The notes beneath the pieces were generated by a model, which was not told the DNA's origin, made no database searches, and saw only the letters and a list, made by a program, of their open reading frames with translations. DNA of 64,000 nucleotides from the NCBI GenBank assembly GCA_029637525.1, contig CP072660.1, forward strand, positions 1,389,612-1,453,611. Direction: 5' to 3'. A program made the position numbers and the translations under genes. Every line of letters begins with the position of its first letter. Positions within the stretch are counted from its first letter, which is position 1. Below, piece after piece: positions 18,471-31,327 of this stretch. This stretch comes from Desulfurococcaceae archaeon MEX13E-LK6-19. GTDB lineage: Archaea > Thermoproteota > Thermoprotei_A > Sulfolobales > Desulfurococcaceae.

Positions 18471-18644
18471 CACTAGCAGTCTTCTCTACATGCCTTGAAC
18501 CTAGTCTTTGAATTCCTTAATTGTTTATGAGAATCATTTTAGCTACACGTGATTATGTTTCTACATATCCTAGGCTGGAGTTAGTTAAATATATTGTGTT
18601 TCGTATTATTCTATTTTGTATTAGGCATATTTAGTGGTGATATA

Positions 18645-19838
18645 TTGGCTACATCTTATTCTGGTTTGAGCCCGGCTATTGCTTGGAAGATCCTATGGTC
18701 TCCTAGTGGTTATCGGGGCTGGGATCATCGTTTTTACATTGAGTGTGCTTATGGAAGTATTAAGGGTGGCTACGATTATGTAGAAAAATATTGCTTTGGA
18801 CATGAATGGTGGAATTTCTACGAGGGATTTAGTGATAAATACTACTATGGATATGCCGCACCTATTCATGTGTTGAGACCCAAAAGATTTATTGATGGTG
18901 GTGTAGTGTTCTTTGTTTCAAGGAATATCTATGACCGCTTATGGTATCTTGTCGGTGTCTATGGCAAGACAAGTATTATGGATAAGCCTTATACAGATCT
19001 ATCTTTATGGGATACAGTCCCTATGGAGTATAGGAACGAGATCTCTAAGAGAACACGAGAGCAGCTTGAAACAGAAATGGCGCTTTATTTGAGGGCAGAG
19101 AAAGAGTACTCCACACAAATGCCACGACCCATGCCTCTTGATATGGAGAGGGATATCGGTGTTAGAGTGCTTGGACAAGCAGGCTTTATGTACCTCAACA
19201 TTAACAAGGCTATAGATCTACTTGACAAAGCCATTGAGTTCATAGAACAGTTGAGCCACAGAGTCTTACATGGTCTCTTATGGACAGAACCAGGCAGAGC
19301 CCTTAGTAGACTTGAGAAATTAAGAAGCTACTTAATGGAGTATAAGCAGAAGCCCGTCATTAGCACTCCATTGACTCTACAACAGAGACACATAACAACT
19401 GGTAGAGAAAGAGAGGAGAATACCCGCGAGTCCATATCTATACACACAATGGGTTCAAGTGGGGAAACAATAGTTCCTGAGAGACTTGTTGAAGACACTC
19501 TAGCGAGAGATCTTAATATAATTGAAGATGGACTAGAACTTATCGGGCGTCAAATTCACCTACCAGGCGTTGGACGTGCTGATATAATAGCACGCGACAA
19601 GAACGATAGGCTCGTTGTAATCGAGGTGAAAAGCGGTATTGCAGATGATACAACATTAACACAAATACTAGCATACATGTCTGCTTTAAGGCAGAGAGAA
19701 GACAGAGAGGTAAGAGGAATAATAGTGGCTAATGGTTTTTCGAAGAAATTAGTGCATGCAGCAAAACTCATTTCAAACATAAAGCTAGTAGAAATAAGAG
19801 TGAATATCACGATAGCTAAAACTAAAGTGTATCCTTAA
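18645..19838 (+). CDS. NucS/EndoMS-like nuclease with N-terminal unknown domain
   Basis: This is a two-domain protein of about 397 residues. The C-terminal 120 residues match the NucS/EndoMS (DUF91) nuclease fold: RDLNIIEDGLELIGRQIHLP, then GVGRADIIARDKN and LVVIEVKSG, giving the PD-(D/E)XK residues Asp and Glu-X-Lys, followed by LTQILAYMSALRQ. The N-terminal half (WSPSGYRGWDHRFYIE, then VVFFVSRN and LVGVYG) looks like a small beta-rich reading domain, perhaps EVE/PUA-like, but this is weak. The start at TTG 18645 has GGTGAT upstream; the longest frame, TTG 18594, would add a hydrophobic stretch. It could cut modified or mismatched DNA. A second NucS-like gene lies at 58725. Confidence 0.65.
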   Translation: MATSYSGLSPAIAWKILWSPSGYRGWDHRFYIECAYGSIKGGYDYVEKYCFGHEWWNFYEGFSDKYYYGYAAPIHVLRPKRFIDGGVVFFVSRNIYDRLWYLVGVYGKTSIMDKPYTDLSLWDTVPMEYRNEISKRTREQLETEMALYLRAEKEYSTQMPRPMPLDMERDIGVRVLGQAGFMYLNINKAIDLLDKAIEFIEQLSHRVLHGLLWTEPGRALSRLEKLRSYLMEYKQKPVISTPLTLQQRHITTGREREENTRESISIHTMGSSGETIVPERLVEDTLARDLNIIEDGLELIGRQIHLPGVGRADIIARDKNDRLVVIEVKSGIADDTTLTQILAYMSALRQREDREVRGIIVANGFSKKLVHAAKLISNIKLVEIRVNITIAKTKVYP

Positions 19839-20653: not shown

Positions 20654-22486
20654 TTATCTGTAGTTTTGTGATAGTCTTGAGAGTTCTTGTGCTATGCTAT
20701 GTAGTTCTTCTGCTGTTTTGTTTACTCTCCTGGCTATCCCCACGAGTTTGAGTGGTGCTATGTTTGTGAATATTTCTGATAACTCTCTGTATATTGTTTC
20801 GTATACGTCTTGAGCGTTTGCTTTCACGGTTTTTTCGCCTAGCTCTATAACAAAGAACCCGTCTAGATCAGCTAGTCCTTTGGCTGTCTTGGATATTGAT
20901 TTAACGACTAGTATTCGGAGGTGCGGTAGCTCTACCAAATCCATTATTTTACTGGATTCCTCGGCTACAGCAAGTCTGTCGATGTCTCGATCCCAGTTTC
21001 CACATGATACATGTATTTTGAATCTCGACATGCCGACTTGTTTTTCAGCCCATATGTCAACTTCTATTTCGGCGTTTCTCCTAGTGGCTTTCACCGCGTT
21101 CACATAGATCGAGAAGCCCATGTCTTCTAGTACTTGTGCAACCACGGTCTTCATGTCCTCATGTGATCGTATGGTTTCAACTGGTACAGGTGTTGGTGTA
21201 ATGGGTAGTGGTGTTGTTGGTACGGGGATGGGGATAGGTTTTCTCTCAACAGGTGTAGGCGGGGGGATAATGTGTACGTTGGGGTAGGTTTTTCTAAGGC
21301 TTTCAACTATTTCTTTCTGCCACGGGTCCTTAATGGTGGTGTTGAGGATGTAGACGTTGTTTTTGTGTATACATATCCATAGTGCGTTGGCTAGATGCTT
21401 GTACCAGTCATGTCTGCCCAGGATGTTGATGTATTCTAGTAGGTTTGCGCCTATGCCTTCGAATACTATTACCGCTTTTTCGTCCTTGCCTACACCGGGT
21501 AGTTTCACCGCGAAGGGACATACGTAGATGTATAGTACTGTTCCTGGGCGTGTGGCTGTGTATCTGCAGCAGTAAGCGTACTCGAGGAACCCCTTGTGTT
21601 TTAGATCTATTTCATAGCCAAGGTTTTTGAAGGCATCAGCGAGACGGTTCACCATGGTGTTGTCAGCGTGTTCCTGGGCAAGCGTTTGGACGGCTTTGTA
21701 GATGTCTTTCGTGATTTCGGAGAGATTGTTTTTCTTACCTTTATGCACGATCTTGGGTATCTCTAGGTATGTAACCACGTCCTCTAGTTTGAATCCATAT
21801 AGTGCGTTGAAGACTATGCTGTCTGGGTTGCAGAGAGCTGCTATCTGGAATGCTTCAGCCGTGTACTTGAGCTTGGAGTATATCTCGTCGTAACTAGGTA
21901 GTTCTTTCTCTACAGTCGAAGAGATCTCGTAGACTAGCTTCTTCGTATTAGGGATAAGCTTCATGACCGTGTAGTAGTATCTCCTGCCGGAACTATGGTT
22001 TCTCACTGCTAGTAGTGTTCGCACAAACAATTGCTCGATCTCGTCCCTACTAATATCCTCTCCAAGCATCACTGAGACAAAATCAGCGACATCATCAGAG
22101 TTAAAGTACTCGACATGCCATTTCTCAATACTCTTCCTAATCCTCAAAACACCGTATTGCAGGATCCTCCTACTAGACTCCGGTAACCCATGTATTCTCT
22201 TCACAGCCTCATCAAACACCTTGTATTCATCCAAGCACTCCCGGATAATCTTCTCGACATCCTCCTGAGAAACCGATTCTATCAACCGGATGAGCCTACC
22301 AGTTACCTCATGGTAGATTTCCTCGGCTCTAGAACTATCTAGACCCAAGAGCTCTAGTGTCCCAAGAATATTCGTGTAGTAGTGTTCTCTAGGAGATCTT
22401 GTCGCCGCATATATTGCTAAAGCGTATTCGATACCTCTACAAGCGAATTCAGATAACTCATCATGATTTATACCCATGAATACCAC
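20654..22486 (-). CDS. Large protein with C-terminal degenerate PD-(D/E)XK-like domain
   Basis: This is a 610-residue protein. The first 400 residues are helical and mixed, with a region like a nuclease or sensor core (YIYVCPFAVKLPGVGKDEKAVIVFEG). Next comes a Pro-rich linker (about residues 403-430, dominated by P, T, I and V), and then a C-terminal domain with the shape of a restriction-endonuclease fold: EDMGFSIYVNA, IEVDIWAEK and FKIHVSCGNWD. The strand that normally carries Glu-X-Lys has Ser-X-Gly (VSCGN), so catalysis is doubtful. It starts at ATG 22486. Function unknown; possibly a sensor or inactive nuclease in a defence context. Confidence 0.6.
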   Translation of the reverse strand: MVFMGINHDELSEFACRGIEYALAIYAATRSPREHYYTNILGTLELLGLDSSRAEEIYHEVTGRLIRLIESVSQEDVEKIIRECLDEYKVFDEAVKRIHGLPESSRRILQYGVLRIRKSIEKWHVEYFNSDDVADFVSVMLGEDISRDEIEQLFVRTLLAVRNHSSGRRYYYTVMKLIPNTKKLVYEISSTVEKELPSYDEIYSKLKYTAEAFQIAALCNPDSIVFNALYGFKLEDVVTYLEIPKIVHKGKKNNLSEITKDIYKAVQTLAQEHADNTMVNRLADAFKNLGYEIDLKHKGFLEYAYCCRYTATRPGTVLYIYVCPFAVKLPGVGKDEKAVIVFEGIGANLLEYINILGRHDWYKHLANALWICIHKNNVYILNTTIKDPWQKEIVESLRKTYPNVHIIPPPTPVERKPIPIPVPTTPLPITPTPVPVETIRSHEDMKTVVAQVLEDMGFSIYVNAVKATRRNAEIEVDIWAEKQVGMSRFKIHVSCGNWDRDIDRLAVAEESSKIMDLVELPHLRILVVKSISKTAKGLADLDGFFVIELGEKTVKANAQDVYETIYRELSEIFTNIAPLKLVGIARRVNKTAEELHSIAQELSRLSQNYR

Positions 22487-24701: not shown

Positions 24702-24901
24702 TTCACGCCACCCTCCCCTCGGGTAGATCTAAGTTATAAACGTTTATATTATTTTCGTTAAATCTAATGAATACATTGTTTCTTCTAGTCAATGTTGATC
24801 AGATTGAACTTTTCAACTACTAGTAGATGAAGTAAAGGTTATATTGGGAAAAATTAATAAATTAACCGTGTAGAAACAAGTTAGTAGTAAAGGTGGGTTC
24901 A

Positions 24902-25315
24902 ATGACGTTCCTTGGGAAGTTTTCCCTACCAATTACCATGTTGGATGAGTATTTGGGAGGCCGTATTCTCTCAGTAACACTTGTTGGAAGCAGTTTATAT
25001 AAAAAATACTATAATGATATTGATATAGTTGTTGTTTCCGATCTACCGGAACAACAATTAAGGAAAAGAGCGCAATTAATGTATAAGGCGCTAGAGAAAA
25101 TCTTGTACCCAAACACAAGAGTGCTCATTAGCGTGAATACTTATGATAACATCCTTAAGGGAGGTAATTCTTCTTCAAGGGATTCTCCAAAACTTCACTT
25201 AATTATTTTAGCAAAGAATACAGAATTATCTGAAGCCATTAGAAAATCTTGGTTGAAGAACTATAGAACTCTCATAGGTAAAGATTTAAGTAGAGTTCTT
25301 GGTTTAGCAGAATAA
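24902..25315 (+). CDS. Minimal nucleotidyltransferase (pol-beta superfamily)
   Basis: This is a 137-residue protein with the nucleotidyltransferase core: LVGSSLYKKYYNDIDIVVVSDL, giving the Gly-Ser motif and the Asp-X-Asp pair (DID). The third carboxylate may lie in the next strand (RVLISVNTYDN), but it is not a clean match. It is much smaller than a CD-NTase of CBASS. It starts at ATG 24902, four bases after AGGTGGG. It is followed 20 bp later by the 600-residue gene, so they are likely one operon. Minimal nucleotidyltransferases often act as antitoxins that modify a partner. Confidence 0.72.
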   Translation: MTFLGKFSLPITMLDEYLGGRILSVTLVGSSLYKKYYNDIDIVVVSDLPEQQLRKRAQLMYKALEKILYPNTRVLISVNTYDNILKGGNSSSRDSPKLHLIILAKNTELSEAIRKSWLKNYRTLIGKDLSRVLGLAE

Positions 25316-25335
25316 TCTAGCTCGGGCAATAAAAT

Positions 25336-27138
25336 ATGGCAAAAGACGCTACTATGGATATAAAAGAGATCATAGAATACAAATTTGAGCCAAAAGAGTC
25401 TGCTTCAGAGCATGTATTGGAAAGAAGCCTTAGTCCACAAAAATTAGAACATTTACTGGAAAAAATATCTAGATCTAAGCGAAGTATCCTATTGATTTAT
25501 CCATCAATCATGACTACAAGTTTTGTATCACTAATAGGCCTTAGAGTACTAGCCAAAATATCTGAAATGATTAGGAACAAAAGAATAGATTATGGAATAC
25601 TCTTCATACTATATACTGGTAAAAACTCTATATTGTCAACATATGGTAAACCTAGCTATGATAAAAACATTTTAAACGAAGTAGAGGAAAAATTTATCAG
25701 ATTACTGAATTTTCTAGGTATAGACCTAGACAAATCTTTTTTCCTATATATTGATGAAAATTTTAGCAGGAATGTAAGCATATATGATATTCATGAAGGC
25801 ATTCTTGCTGAACTAATTAATAAAACTGAGAAACAACCCGAGAAGTATAGATACCTTTACACATATTATTCAAAGCTAACCCAGTTACTACATTCATATA
25901 GGAGAGCATTCGTTACACTTATGCTAAGAGCTTGGTATACTGTTTACATACTTGAAAATCTACGAAAAATTATATCAACAGAGTACTGGTTTAGTTCTTT
26001 ATTTTTTAACTACAAGTCAATACATATGTTTGTGTCTACAGTATTGTATACTGAGGCTATAAAAACCTACTTAGGTATTCTTGGAGAAAGGTACTTCGAG
26101 AACAATAATGTTTGTTGTTTTTACGTCATTAATATAAAGCCCATGACTATCCCATGGCATTTTTCTGGATTGCGACAATACCTAGAAAAATACCTAGAAA
26201 GTTCTTCCTCAAAAAACAGAAGTTCAATGAAAACTAGAGAGAAAAGTGTATCATTACGTAAAAGTAATGTCCTAAACATAGTTGTTGATCTAATAGATAA
26301 AAAAATTATTGATAAAGAGTCTATTATATTGTGTTCAGACAGAGTCAAAAACATCTATGTTACTGATCTATATGAATTACTAACTAACAGAAAAGAAGAT
26401 ATCGTTGAGACAGTTAATTGTTTAACCTTGTATATTGAAGCCTTAAGAAAGTATAAGGAAATTAAGAAGGATAAAGGAATTAACTACACAAAGAATATTG
26501 ATACGCTAAAGAACAATTTAGCGCATATATTGAAGTATTTAAATGAACTAATAGAGTTCGCAGATAAAGTGAATATCATGTATCGGGAAGAACATTCTCT
26601 TTGTAACGAACCAATAAAACTATCGATCAAAACTAAGCAGAAAACCGTGTCAGTAAAAGAGGTATTTAAGCTTTTTGAAGACGTAAATGCACTAGTAGCC
26701 TCTGCTAAAGGTAAGGCAAAGAAGTGTTTAGATGCATTACTACTTATTTTAGAGGGTGTTCTAGAAATTTGTGATGGAAGAAGAAAGATTTACACTGTTT
26801 CTATAGAGGATCTTCCAAGTGCTTGTATTAAACTTATATCAGCTTCTAGTAATACTCGTAGAAATCTTGTAGAAAAATTTGAAAAACAGAAAATCGTGAG
26901 CAACAAGACTTTTTACAAAAAATTGGCTGATTTTTTAAATGATCTAGAAGAGATAGGTATAACCATAAGACGGGCTGAAACGCCTTATTTCAGCAATAAA
27001 ATAATAATTAAATTTAGGGAAAACAATTATTCACCTGTAGACCTCCAAGTAATTTTTGATAATAGATTTAATAATCAAATAGGAAGAGATATTCTAATAA
27101 ACATTACTATGCTAATGAAGAAAATGATTAAATCATAA
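25336..27138 (+). CDS. Large protein of unknown function, operon partner of the nucleotidyltransferase
   Basis: This is a 600-residue soluble protein with no recognised family. The first 160 residues alternate strands and helices (SILLIYPSIMTTSFVS, then YGILFILYTGKNS, then FFLYIDENF), which suggests a Rossmann-like sensor domain, possibly of the CARF type, though not proven. A long, Lys/Glu-rich helical section follows (about residues 290-470). The C-terminus is mixed (IIIKFRENNYSPVDLQVIFDNRF). It lies 20 bp after the nucleotidyltransferase and precedes a winged-helix gene after a 327-bp gap. Confidence 0.5.
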   Translation: MAKDATMDIKEIIEYKFEPKESASEHVLERSLSPQKLEHLLEKISRSKRSILLIYPSIMTTSFVSLIGLRVLAKISEMIRNKRIDYGILFILYTGKNSILSTYGKPSYDKNILNEVEEKFIRLLNFLGIDLDKSFFLYIDENFSRNVSIYDIHEGILAELINKTEKQPEKYRYLYTYYSKLTQLLHSYRRAFVTLMLRAWYTVYILENLRKIISTEYWFSSLFFNYKSIHMFVSTVLYTEAIKTYLGILGERYFENNNVCCFYVINIKPMTIPWHFSGLRQYLEKYLESSSSKNRSSMKTREKSVSLRKSNVLNIVVDLIDKKIIDKESIILCSDRVKNIYVTDLYELLTNRKEDIVETVNCLTLYIEALRKYKEIKKDKGINYTKNIDTLKNNLAHILKYLNELIEFADKVNIMYREEHSLCNEPIKLSIKTKQKTVSVKEVFKLFEDVNALVASAKGKAKKCLDALLLILEGVLEICDGRRKIYTVSIEDLPSACIKLISASSNTRRNLVEKFEKQKIVSNKTFYKKLADFLNDLEEIGITIRRAETPYFSNKIIIKFRENNYSPVDLQVIFDNRFNNQIGRDILINITMLMKKMIKS

Positions 27139-27284: not shown

Positions 27285-27465
27285 TTATCTGCACCGTGTA
27301 CATTTTTTACTAAGATTACGCATCACTGTTTATTAATTTTCCCTACTATAGATCTTCGAAAATTCTTGAAAAATACCGTAAATACAATGATAAAAGTAAA
27401 TAAGCTGGCGCCGAAGAGGTAAACTAGTGAGACAATCTACTTTGAAAAGAGAGGGAGGCTATATT

Positions 27466-27954
27466 ATGATTGTGAAACGAACGAACTTACTGCTCGAGTT
27501 ATCGCCTACTGAATTAGAAGTTTTCGCATTGATTCTAGAAAATGGTGGAGTTGCAACACTAGAAGACCTTTCAGAAAAAGCTCCTCATATTCCCGTAGGA
27601 AGTATTAAGAGAAGCTTAGCTAAGCTTAAGAATCTTCGATTGATAGAATCAATACCAATTGTAAGGGCAACAACTATTGATAGACTCCGAATAATTCTCC
27701 CAAGCAATATTGTTAACAATTGTCCTGATCTACTGAAAAGTATAGTGGAGAAAACAAGAAAACTTAAAGAAGAAAAAATTGATCCACGAACGAGAATTTA
27801 TGTCGTACGTGTTACTCCGAATGAGCTTAGGGTAATGATAGAAGAACTTCTTGCATTAGTAGAGAGAGGACTAATAAAGAATAGAGCAGAAAAAGAACAA
27901 GCAGGTAAAGTAATAGTATCTGCTATATCAAAGTTTAGCCTTTGTAAACAATAA
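27466..27954 (+). CDS. Winged-helix transcriptional regulator
   Basis: This is a 162-residue protein with a MarR/TrmB-like winged helix-turn-helix: LSPTELEVFALILENGG, then TLEDLSEKA, then SIKRSLAKLKNLRLIES (residues about 10-60). A helical C-terminal part (LLKSIVEKTRKLKEE... and VERGLIKNRAEKEQA) could form a dimer. The start is ATG 27466 with GGGAGG upstream; a GTG at 27427 is longer. It lies upstream of the ubiquitin-like operon with 235 bp between, so it may regulate that operon or the upstream genes. That link is by position only. Confidence 0.65.
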   Translation: MIVKRTNLLLELSPTELEVFALILENGGVATLEDLSEKAPHIPVGSIKRSLAKLKNLRLIESIPIVRATTIDRLRIILPSNIVNNCPDLLKSIVEKTRKLKEEKIDPRTRIYVVRVTPNELRVMIEELLALVERGLIKNRAEKEQAGKVIVSAISKFSLCKQ

Positions 27955-28189: not shown

Positions 28190-28426
28190 GTGAAGCCTCG
28201 TCTTAAGCTAGTAGTCATTGACAGGATGACTGATGCCCAGAGAGAAATCGAAGTACCAAGTTCAATGAAGTTTAAGGAATTCAGGGATTACTTAAAAAGA
28301 ATTTTTGGTAGAGACGAAGCAACATTAATCGATATTAATCCAAGTGCTGACGACGAAGTTGTCATTGGTAGCGTATTTAAGGATGGTGATGTTGTCGAGA
28401 TTGATACTTACAAGACTGTTGCTTAA
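28190..28426 (+). CDS. Ubiquitin-like beta-grasp protein
   Basis: This is a 78-residue protein, almost the length of ubiquitin, with a beta-grasp layout: strands RLKLVVID and REIEVPSS, helix KFKEFRDYLKRIFG, strand ATLIDINP, and the final FKDGDVVEI that matches the 'DGD-x-V' end of ThiS/MoaD/ubiquitin-like proteins. It does not end in Gly-Gly: the last residues are DTYKTVA. It is the first gene of a five-gene operon with E2-like, JAMM, E1-like and JAMM genes, and is predicted to be the conjugated modifier. Start: GTG 28190, ten bases after AGGAGAGGT; the longer GTG at 28178 lies inside that site. Confidence 0.72.
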   Translation: MKPRLKLVVIDRMTDAQREIEVPSSMKFKEFRDYLKRIFGRDEATLIDINPSADDEVVIGSVFKDGDVVEIDTYKTVA

Positions 28427-28453
28427 CTACGGATTATTAAAAACGGTGGTATA

Positions 28454-28984
28454 ATGAATACCTCTTTTTATATTAAGTATTGTGATTTAAATAATCGTAA
28501 AGTTTTTGTTAGCTACAAGTATATACTCAAGGAGCTGGAAACAAGTTATGATGTAATTAGACCATTAGATACTCCTTTATGTATAGGTACATATGCTTTC
28601 ATAATATTTGTTGGTACAAAAAATAGGAGAAAACATGCTTTTATTGTTGCGGAAGATCTTTTACATTATCCGAGGAAAATCCCACGAGTATATGTTTATC
28701 CCGGATACATTCATCCATGTTTGTTTTCCAATAGAAGCCCCTTACAACAAGTTTACAGTAAATTATATAGGAATGTCCTTGAAGAGTACTTGAGGAAAAA
28801 CAATCTTCCGATTGGTTATGAGTATTACGAAGTCCACTGGGACACTGAATTCTTAAGGTGTCTCGAAAGGAAAACCCTCTATATAGGTGCTCTTAAGGAT
28901 CATTTGAGAGGTTTGCTAAAAACAGATAATCCCAAAGAACATGAACCTATTTTTGATCTAGTATATCCCAACTTTAGGGGGTGA
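28454..28984 (+). CDS. E2-like (UBC-fold) ubiquitin-conjugating protein
   Basis: This 176-residue protein has the ordered landmarks of a UBC fold: GTYAFIIFVG (residues 45-54) and KHAFIVAEDL (60-69), then YPRKIPRVYVYPGYIHPC (72-89), which parallels YP..PP.V.....HPN. Then comes HW (128-129) followed by LRCLERKTLYIGALKDHLRG and LLKTDNPKE, which parallels W...L..VL..I..LL..PNP. The usual Cys between HPN and W is absent; Cys89 directly after HP is the best candidate, and Cys10, Cys43 and Cys136 are others. It sits 27 bp after the Ubl gene and 9 bp before a JAMM gene, with GGTGGT before ATG 28454. E2 role inferred. Confidence 0.55.
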   Translation: MNTSFYIKYCDLNNRKVFVSYKYILKELETSYDVIRPLDTPLCIGTYAFIIFVGTKNRRKHAFIVAEDLLHYPRKIPRVYVYPGYIHPCLFSNRSPLQQVYSKLYRNVLEEYLRKNNLPIGYEYYEVHWDTEFLRCLERKTLYIGALKDHLRGLLKTDNPKEHEPIFDLVYPNFRG

Positions 28985-28993
28985 CTTTACAAA

Positions 28994-29983
28994 ATGTTTG
29001 ATAGAATAAAGAAAAGAAATAAAATAAACCAATCACGACAAAGTATTAAAACCATGATAAAAGTATACACATCTATTGATTTTCTTGCCAAAGTATTTAC
29101 ACAAACAGTCAAAGATTGTTTAAAGTGTACTAGTACAGATCACAATAATTCCATGGGCAACAACAATGAACTCCATTCATGTGAATCAGGTTTTGCAGCG
29201 AAATACGACATCTATGAAAAAGATAACACTCTAATCTACAAACTACATGAAAAAGTCTATGAAATAAAGGCAAAACCCAAGTCAAAATACTCAATACAAA
29301 TACCTGCTAGAGCAGGAGAAGTTTTTGGGCATACACATCCCTGGCTAGAAGCTAAACCATCAGGCACAGATAGCAATACATTTAGAGAGATTGCTGAGAA
29401 ACTGCTAGAGGCAAACACACTTGCTCTAACAAAACCTTACTTATACTCCATAGCTTCAGCGAGAATTACAAGTAATGAAAGACAATCTTTAACAATACAT
29501 TTTGAGATAATGTTTTATGTGCCCATACTCAACTATGATTATCAAGTTACCGAAATAAATAATATCGTGTTGGCTAACTCTACCAAGTTATTAAACAATA
29601 ATGACATATCGCTATATATTGTATCAGAAGATCCATACACTAATACGTTATATGTACATACTGTTTACAATAAAGAGGAGGCAAGCAAGCTTCCTGCATC
29701 AATAATAAAAGAAGGGATGTTAGGTATCTCCGGGAATGTTGTAAACAACAGAGAGTTATCCCCTCTTACACAATGGTTTGTTGGACTCTATGCGTCAAGA
29801 ACTGGTTTAAATAATGTTTATGTGATCAATATTAAAGAAAGAAAGGCATGGCGAGTATCAATACTATCTAAAATAAATGTAGATGTTGTCGCTGTAAATT
29901 CTATTCATTTTTCTTGGATTTCAGAAGATAAGCTGAACTCTAAAGCACAACAAAGAGAGGGTAACGGAAATGCCTATGGGTAA
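28994..29983 (+). CDS. JAMM/JAB metallopeptidase-like protein
   Basis: This is a 329-residue protein with an exact JAMM motif: HTHPWLEAKPSGTD (His113, His115, Ser123, Asp126), which is H-X-H-X7-S-X2-D. A Glu near 64 (CESGF) is placed like the catalytic Glu upstream. This zinc peptidase family removes or processes ubiquitin-like modifiers. The C-terminal 160 residues have no known domain. A strong GGGGGTGAC site overlapping the E2 stop lies 9 bp before ATG 28994. The gene overlaps the E1-like gene by 14 bp, so the two are linked translationally. Probable role: processing or removing the operon's Ubl. Confidence 0.68.
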   Translation: MFDRIKKRNKINQSRQSIKTMIKVYTSIDFLAKVFTQTVKDCLKCTSTDHNNSMGNNNELHSCESGFAAKYDIYEKDNTLIYKLHEKVYEIKAKPKSKYSIQIPARAGEVFGHTHPWLEAKPSGTDSNTFREIAEKLLEANTLALTKPYLYSIASARITSNERQSLTIHFEIMFYVPILNYDYQVTEINNIVLANSTKLLNNNDISLYIVSEDPYTNTLYVHTVYNKEEASKLPASIIKEGMLGISGNVVNNRELSPLTQWFVGLYASRTGLNNVYVINIKERKAWRVSILSKINVDVVAVNSIHFSWISEDKLNSKAQQREGNGNAYG

Positions 29984-30821
29984 TGGTAAATACTATGGTT
30001 TTGAACTGAGACTGCTTAAACACTATCTGAATAAGAAGAAGGAGCTTCAAGGAATTAATGAGAAGAGAATAGCTATTATAGGTTGTGGATCTATTGGGTC
30101 AATTATAGCGGAAATCCTGGCAAGATTTAATCCTCGGGAACTTATTCTCATAGATTATGATATCGTTGATATAGAGAATGTAGGATATCAACCATATGGG
30201 CCTAGATATATTGGTGTACCTAAATCTAAAGCTTTGGCAGAAAAACTGCTATTAACATACCCGTTTCTTGATACAAAAATAACTGTAATTACAGAACCAA
30301 TACCATCATCGGACCTAGTTATAAGTGAGAACGAGCTTACGGGTCTTCTTAATAAATTCGATGATATTATCAAAAGAAGCGATGTTCTCATAGCAGCCGT
30401 AGACAAGGTTTCCCCTAGAAGAATACTAACTATATGGAGCATAGCTTTCGGGAAACCTCTTGTAAGCCTGGGTGCGGATAGAGATGATGGATGGGTTGGC
30501 GGTTATTGCGGAAAAGGAACACCTTCTAAGCCACTATGTCCTGATTTTCTTCAAGCTAATATAGGTGGACAAGGATACGCTATAAACCCTGTTGTCACAT
30601 ATACTGTATCAGCAGAAGCAGCATGGTTAGCATTAAATTACGCTATAGGAACGATAAAAGAGAATGTTCTCTTATCAATATATGCTATACACGATACAAT
30701 TAACATCAAGAAAATTCGGCCAAGAGAATGTAATAGCAAATACGTCAACGAGCTTACACGAATACGCTTCAGTAACCTCCATGAGCTTAATCGTTGGATT
30801 ATTAAAAATGAGTTATGGTGA
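29970..30821 (+). CDS. E1-like ThiF/UBA-type adenylating enzyme
   Basis: This is a 283-residue protein of the ThiF/MoeB/E1 family. The nucleotide-binding motif is IAIIGCGSIGSIIAEILARF (GCGSIG at residues 38-43), followed by LILIDYDIVDIENVGYQ (Asp62, Asp64), a VPKSKA lysine pair (85, 87) and VLIAAVDKVSPRRI (Asp145). Cys180 (GGYCGKG) and Cys190 (KPLCPDF) are candidate thioester sites. The paired CxxC zinc motif of many relatives is absent. It would adenylate the C-terminus of the Ubl. It starts at ATG 29970 with GAGAGGGT upstream and ends just before the second JAMM gene. Confidence 0.85.
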   Translation: MPMGNGKYYGFELRLLKHYLNKKKELQGINEKRIAIIGCGSIGSIIAEILARFNPRELILIDYDIVDIENVGYQPYGPRYIGVPKSKALAEKLLLTYPFLDTKITVITEPIPSSDLVISENELTGLLNKFDDIIKRSDVLIAAVDKVSPRRILTIWSIAFGKPLVSLGADRDDGWVGGYCGKGTPSKPLCPDFLQANIGGQGYAINPVVTYTVSAEAAWLALNYAIGTIKENVLLSIYAIHDTINIKKIRPRECNSKYVNELTRIRFSNLHELNRWIIKNELW

Positions 30822-30826
30822 TTATT

Positions 30827-31327
30827 ATGGCCAAAGTTGTTTACCTATATTCTTTATTAGAAAGACTAAAAGAACGGGCCTTTGAGGCTTATCCCAAGGA
30901 AATCGCCATGTATATCTACGGTAAAGAAGATTGGAGCTCTCATGGAGAATTACAGCTTCTCATAACAGATATCGAGATCGTGAAAAACTATGCAACTACA
31001 AATTCATACTTACTCCCCCGAATAGAGCTGGCAAAATTAAAAACTTGTATAGGGATGCTACACACCCATCCATATACACCGTCTATGAAAAAATCTGGAG
31101 CATTGAATCCACAAACAATAACAGTTACATTACATAGGATTGCTTATCCCTCTCATCAAGACAAAATCTTTTTTGCTAATTTACTTGACAAACTTAACAG
31201 GGAATACATGCTATTAGGTATTTTTTCCTGCTTCAAGATAAACACTATTAAAGAGAGTAGTCTAAGATTTTACATCATAACAAAGAACAATACATTAATG
31301 GAGGCAGAGCAGGCAATTATTATCTAA
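30827..31327 (+). CDS. Second JAMM/JAB-like protein with an enlarged motif
   Basis: This is a 166-residue JAB-fold protein. It opens with an N-terminal helix ending YPKEIAMYIYGKE, where Glu25 matches the JAMM catalytic Glu, and has GMLHTHP (His79, His81). The S-X2-D part is not at the usual place; PSHQD (Ser109, Asp112) lies 27 residues after the second His instead of seven, so the motif may be intact but split by about 20 extra residues. It may be an inactive or specialised deconjugase. The start is ATG 30827 with GGTGAT overlapping the E1 stop; the longer ATG 30815 is inside the E1 gene. Confidence 0.65.
   Translation: MAKVVYLYSLLERLKERAFEAYPKEIAMYIYGKEDWSSHGELQLLITDIEIVKNYATTNSYLLPRIELAKLKTCIGMLHTHPYTPSMKKSGALNPQTITVTLHRIAYPSHQDKIFFANLLDKLNREYMLLGIFSCFKINTIKESSLRFYIITKNNTLMEAEQAIII

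Follow-up and report, generated by a model that had tools for sequence, protein, structure and literature searches.

A divergent, conserved E1-E2-JAMM operon with an Atg3-like E2 site in Desulfurococcaceae and Ignicoccus archaea

A five-gene operon in Desulfurococcaceae archaeon MEX13E-LK6-19 is a real, conserved and divergent E1-E2-JAMM module, and represents a variant of the archaeal ubiquitin operon whose E2 carries an Atg3-like active site. The operon lies within a 64,000-nucleotide stretch of DNA (contig CP072660.1, positions 1,389,612 to 1,453,611), hereafter called the window, from a 1.91-Mb genome represented by one contig. Its five open reading frames (ORFs) are closely packed on the plus strand and encode, in order, a ubiquitin-like protein (Ubl), a UBC-like E2, a JAMM protein (JAB1), a ThiF-fold E1 and a second, JAMM-like protein (JAB2) (Table 1). 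A sequence-only reading of the window had described this packing and had grouped an E1, a UBC-like E2 and JAMM proteins as a single operon with no visible E3; the ORF coordinates and spacing match that description, the presence of the three parts is supported, and no E3 was seen among the operon genes. It is likely that the operon serves Ubl conjugation of some sort.

The same reading had called for a search for synteny in related genomes, and such synteny was found. The order Ubl-E2, JAMM, E1 is kept as a packed cluster in all four Ignicoccus genomes, where Ubl and E2 form a single ORF; in the window the two share one reading frame and are split by a single TAA. The best E1 matches across the class all fall within this one genus. 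A JAMM-E1 pair recurs in an Acidilobaceae-like metagenome-assembled genome (G031), preceded by a 324-residue protein; this is possibly a Ubl-E2 that has diverged very far, and it gives no significant alignment with the Ubl-E2 fusions. For the Ignicoccus pair L036/L037, in which the synonymous rate (dS) can be estimated for all genes (it is saturated in many other pairs), the ratio of nonsynonymous to synonymous rates (dN/dS) is about 0.13-0.25 for the three core genes. Given this dN/dS and the conservation of gene order and motifs between genera, the operon is not a chance assembly. The genes around it differ between the window and Ignicoccus, and the I. hospitalis genome is strongly reduced: about 180 clusters that most genomes conserve are broken up in it (PMC2614490).

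Searches of 226 genomes of the class with E2 and JAMM profiles revealed no further convincing members, nor did an E2 profile search of 398 genomes of the phylum. Direct searches of genome and viral contigs with the window E2 or E1 confirmed no relatives, the sequence first used to confirm matches being too divergent in some of these searches. An apparent E2 homologue in genome G119 (L005) proved to be noise, since stop codons interrupt the match and its surroundings contain neither E1 nor JAB genes. A 148-residue winged helix-turn-helix (wHTH) protein encoded ahead of the Ignicoccus cluster has a homologue in all ten same-order genomes tested and is therefore a general gene rather than part of the system.

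The E1 belongs, on sequence phylogeny, with the E2-linked E1s of Caldiarchaeum-type operons. It matches ThiF (PF00899) at 2.5e-21. Because the scoring profile was made from the same sequences, the gap in bit scores between these E1s and other proteins was set aside, and we relied on trees instead. In a first tree, the six system E1s group together, apart from 53 other archaeal proteins of ThiF/MoeB type (support 99/96), and this clade is unbroken when each long branch is omitted. A second tree, which added E1s neighbouring canonical archaeal E2 loci and included no ATG7 sequence, again recovers one clade (100/98), and a 99/98 branch sets this clade, together with 20 of the 21 E2-linked E1s, apart from MoeB/ThiF; the genome's own MoeB also falls outside this group. 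Long branches call for some caution in reading this placement. Canonical archaeal E2 loci above cut-off occur in 47 of the 270 Thermoproteota genomes sampled (about 17%). Given this frequency and the position of the E1, we regard the operon as a divergent variant and not as a kind of its own. The earlier proposal of an undescribed system is therefore doubtful, whereas its view that the gene order and the E2 are unlike described types is supported.

The divergence is evident in what the E1s have lost. E2-linked E1s keep a crossover-loop cysteine (as in AECTL, NPCS or LQCS) and mostly carry a C-terminal ubiquitin-fold domain (UFD); all six system E1s lack both. The NLxRQ motif is altered as well, to NVGYQ (the form in the window) or NIGYQ.

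The E2 has no Pfam or NCBIfam match, nor any to UBC families in Pfam scans up to E 10, and UQ_con matches nothing in the window's genome (G000). The Ubl likewise has no useful match in these collections, yielding one stray match to PRiA4_ORF3 (0.018). Since profiles give so little, the beta-grasp and UBC identities proposed earlier rest on conserved gene order, the motif and the modelled Ignicoccus fusion protein. The window E2 is 24-28% identical to the E2 half of the Ignicoccus fusions, with Y72, P73, P77, H87, C89, F91, N93, W129 and D130 invariant. Its spacing Y-P-x3-P-x9-H is identical to that of canonical archaeal E2s, and a cysteine replaces the asparagine of HPN, producing an HxC site in all five E2s (HPC in the window, HKC in Ignicoccus). 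Atg3 and Atg10 have HPC as their catalytic motif (PMC10851258). Alignment of the E2 profile with archaeal E2s is weak (hhalign E 0.059) but in the correct register.

AlphaFold, run on an alignment that included the window E2, modelled the I. hospitalis fusion with a pLDDT of 84. Residues 7-85 are modelled as a ubiquitin fold (beta-beta-alpha-beta-beta-alpha-beta), and this domain is matched by Foldseek to UFM1, NEDD8 and ubiquitin variants (TMt about 0.7-0.8). Beyond it come a helix and then three to four strands, followed by the HxC site and further helices, which is the order of elements of a UBC-like protein; the model thus supports, short of proof, a UBC fold for the E2. For the window Ubl itself, the ubiquitin fold is predicted from its sequence. 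A model of the window Ubl and E2 translated through the stop codon reached a pLDDT of only 43.5, too low for a meaningful fold search.

The window Ubl ends in TVA, not GG; there is no glycine at this end, and none could be exposed by trimming. Its tail is colinear with, and of the same length as, those of the genome's GG-ended MoaD/ThiS proteins, with VA replacing GG, and it equals the tail of archaeal ubiquitin in length too. The best profile match is to the UFD of E2-linked E1s (hhalign score 23.7, residues 19-75 of 78), a score reached by none of 100 shuffles and higher than those for MoaD (17.5) and free archaeal ubiquitin (16.7). Ubl domains without GG form part of the E2 protein in Ignicoccus and of the E1 protein in genomes G059 and G252, and in G252 a separate GG-ended Ubl is encoded beside the fusion. 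Because it lacks GG, has a homologue joined to E2 in Ignicoccus and resembles the UFD more than ubiquitin or MoaD, the operon Ubl may not be the modifier. It is probably a UFD-like adaptor of E1 and E2. The UFD match, together with the related GG-less Ubl-E1 fusions, suggests that the modifier is encoded elsewhere in the genome, probably as a GG-ended Ubl. Six ThiS/MoaD-type Ubl matches above the Pfam cut-off are available as candidates, and the five ORFs that were read all end in GG. Of the full modifier pathway once proposed, the E1, E2 and JAMM module therefore holds, but the Ubl as its modifier does not fit comfortably.

JAB1 is matched by Prok-JAB (0.034) and a PADLOC JAB model (0.0019) and has the full HxHP...PSxxD motif, in which HxH...PSxxD is invariant in the Ignicoccus and G031 homologues. 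JAB2 matches Prok-JAB at 1.9e-4, under the Pfam cut-off, and retains HTHP but lacks the motif aspartate (SGALN); it is absent from the Ignicoccus clusters. It is probably a pseudo-enzyme (MPN-minus) partner, which makes the earlier count of two deconjugating proteins doubtful.

We tentatively favour a compact, E3-less module of the archaeal E2-linked lineage with the Ubl as its adaptor, a proposal that in its full form we would place somewhat short of an even chance. The E1 would adenylate the C-terminus of a GG-ended Ubl encoded elsewhere, and, with no crossover-loop cysteine left on the E1 to receive it, this Ubl would pass in activated form directly to Cys89 of the HPC-type E2. The GG-less operon Ubl would serve as the missing UFD that holds E1 and E2 together, and its fusion to E2 in Ignicoccus would achieve the same purpose. 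The E2 would then attach the modifier to a target protein, from which JAB1 would remove it, with JAB2 as an inactive partner.

Several observations weigh against this proposal. The match between Ubl and UFD is modest, at 14% identity, and the UFD profile contains more sequences than its rivals. The Ignicoccus Ubl is nearer to free archaeal ubiquitin (21.3) than to the UFD (17.1). Some E1s lack the UFD entirely, and its absence thus need not be compensated; moreover, no modifier gene is linked to the operon. The profile match of the E2 to UBC families falls short of statistical significance, and its predicted fold relies on element order and motif, as the Foldseek search, which spanned the whole fusion, returned matches mostly to the Ubl domain.

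The operon Ubl could itself be the modifier, activated through its C-terminal alanine in a self-contained E1-E2-Ubl-JAMM cascade such as the sequence-only reading described. In the Ignicoccus version, the JAMM protein would first sever the Ubl from the E2 at the conserved EEPYG-S. The location of the Ubl gene within the operon agrees with this, as do the tail length shared with MoaD/ThiS proteins and archaeal ubiquitin and the EEPYGS sequence, which all four Ignicoccus species share unchanged at the point where the Ubl domain should end. There is also precedent in Caldiarchaeum, whose Rpn11 matures pro-ubiquitin and cuts an N-terminal ubiquitin fusion (PMC5654768). The lack of any usable C-terminal glycine, the GG-less fusion to E2 in Ignicoccus and the preference for the UFD nevertheless make a modifier role unlikely.

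A bolder interpretation, which seems distinctly unlikely, is that the operon represents an unrecognised archaeal branch in which an E1 without its own thioester cysteine would pass adenylated Ubl directly to an HPC-type, Atg3-like E2, with the E2-recruiting UFD of the E1 moved to a separate protein or to the E2, and which possibly acts on membranes or lipids in Ignicoccus.

An anti-virus defence role like that of CBASS, Bil or Bub is not favoured and appears highly unlikely. PADLOC E1-E2 models match the E1 at 1e-18, and genes for an Mrr-type nuclease and a PIN-domain protein lie 6-14 kb upstream. However, the PADLOC matches are confined to the ThiF fold; apart from the weak JAB1 match, its models recognise no E2, effector or Cap gene here, and the operon has no effector or cyclase gene. 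The cluster is also retained in four Ignicoccus genomes, including minimal I. hospitalis, amid neighbours that differ from those in the window.

There is still less to recommend an autophagy-like ATG7/ATG3-type pair that would place a Ubl on an unusual acceptor, such as an aminolipid, instead of a protein. Ignicoccus has an unusual membrane system, all five E2s share the HxC site of Atg3 and Atg10, and ATG7 chains are the best solved relatives of the E1 profile (3e-20, versus 1e-14 for MoeB). Against this, the ATG7 model TIGR01381 reaches only 29.6 of 571 bits, neither Autophagy_act_C nor an ATG7 N-terminal domain is matched, and the tree (without ATG7) joins the E1 to E2-linked archaeal E1s. 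ATG7 was also rejected as a specially close relative of the E1, since archaeal ThiF proteins of the usual sort score similarly (up to 89 bits, against 75.7 for ATG7), and serves as a lead only. Equally remote is a sulfur-transfer or other metabolic Ubl module with a non-catalytic E2-like protein, which would accord with the ThiF fold, the MoaD-like Ubl tail and the JAB, E1 and Ubl operons that include sulfur-metabolism genes in bacteria and Pyrobaculum (PMC1779556), but is opposed by the E2-linked E1 clade, the conserved HxC site, the lack of a GG tail for thiocarboxylation and the absence of recognised sulfur or cofactor genes near the operon.

Table 1. Features of the operon and candidate modifiers (window positions unless stated otherwise)
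Feature	Position	Strand	Remarks
wHTH regulator (Lrs14/TrmB-like)	27427-27954	+	Upstream of operon, followed by a gap of >200 bp; link to the system unestablished
Ubl	28190-28426	+	78 residues, predicted beta-grasp; GTG start preceded by GGAGAGGTG; C-terminus VFKDGDVVEIDTYKTVA (no GG)
Stop codon and 27-nt spacer	28424-28453	+	Between Ubl and E2
E2, UBC-like	28454-28984	+	176 residues; 27-bp gap after Ubl; alignable to the E2 portion of the Ignicoccus fusions
HPC, proposed catalytic cysteine C89	28712-28720	+	Spacing as for HPN of canonical E2s
JAB1, JAMM metalloprotease	28994-29983	+	329 residues; proposed deconjugase; 9-bp gap after E2
JAMM zinc motif of JAB1, HTHPWLEAKPSGTD	29330-29371	+	
E1, ThiF-fold adenylating enzyme	29970-30821	+	283 residues; 14-bp overlap with JAB1
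JAB2, second JAMM-like protein	30815 or 30827 to 31327	+	170 residues; the later start leaves a 5-bp gap
ThiS/MoaD-type Ubl matches, candidate modifiers	Genome G000, contig C1, near 114172, 446766, 752363, 758951, 768688 and 1356519		

Translated through the TAA, the spacer between Ubl and E2 reads LRIIKNGG-IM, with GG adjoining the E2 start; the GGTGGT that encodes it is probably the E2 ribosome-binding site. Close to the operon on its upstream side (24893-27138), a nucleotidyltransferase-domain protein is encoded beside a 600-residue protein without a family match. Farther upstream are an Mrr-like restriction nuclease (20654-22486, minus strand) and a NucS/Cas4-like PD-(D/E)XK protein (18594-19838, plus strand), which is the PADLOC candidate PDC-S02.

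Other E1-E2-JAMM clusters were also encountered. In G059 (L150, 6730-8948, minus strand), a divergent cluster of the same order comprises a Ubl-E1 fusion, an E2 with the canonical HPN...C and a JAMM protein, and a further cluster occurs in G342 (L151, 6847-8852). The cluster in G252 (L152, 6046-9757) has a free GG-ended Ubl in addition to the Ubl domain on its E1, and its JAMM is joined to a long stretch of sequence in which a membrane segment is predicted.

Makarova and Koonin surveyed the Ubl genes of archaea, I. hospitalis included, in 2010 and remarked that E2s had so far escaped detection in archaea (PMC2948915). Eukaryote-like E2s were later found in Caldiarchaeum and other archaea, as described in passages of PMC5654768 and PMC4327156. 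Ignicoccus is not named in the main text of the former, a 2017 paper on archaeal ubiquitylation, and in these passages, from a search of open-licence papers, there is no mention of Ignicoccus or of an archaeal E2 of the HPC type. With an E2-linked system in the cultivated I. hospitalis and its reduced genome, the chemistry of archaeal E2s could be tested in a living host, and a cysteine-less E1 next to an Atg3-type E2 would put ideas on the evolution of two-step thioester transfer to the test.

Among known systems, haloarchaeal SAMP/UbaA/HvJAMM1 shares with this operon a ThiF-fold E1, a JAMM protein and GG-ended Ubls elsewhere in the genome, whereas the E1s described here fall outside the MoeB/ThiF group. 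No E2 is known for the SAMP system. Bacterial Bil and Bub operons likewise gather a Ubl or target, E2, E1 and JAB, as does CBASS Cap2-Cap3 (PMC10097602). The window system differs in having an E2 unmatched by PADLOC models, a small separate E1, an archaeal host and no effector. Autophagy conjugation resembles it in the HxC site of ATG3 and ATG10, and ATG7, the best solved relative of the E1 profile, also has no separate E1 catalytic-cysteine domain; ATG7 nevertheless keeps its cysteine, whereas the window E1 consists of an adenylation domain alone in which that position is lost, the autophagy family models are not reached, and a JAMM protein takes the place of Atg4.

Caldiarchaeum-type operons encode ubiquitin, E1, E2, the srfp E3 and an Rpn11/JAMM protease (PMC5654768). 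By comparison, no RING family was found among the operon genes or the flanking ORFs, to which the scan for it was limited, and the E2 has HPC instead of HPN...C. The E1 is devoid of the crossover-loop cysteine and of the C-terminal UBL/UFD, and the Ubl ends neither in GG nor in GG followed by a pro-peptide. In both, however, E1, E2 and JAMM genes are clustered and archaeal, the E1s sit on one side of the same well-supported branch, and a JAMM protease with the JAB1 motif is present.

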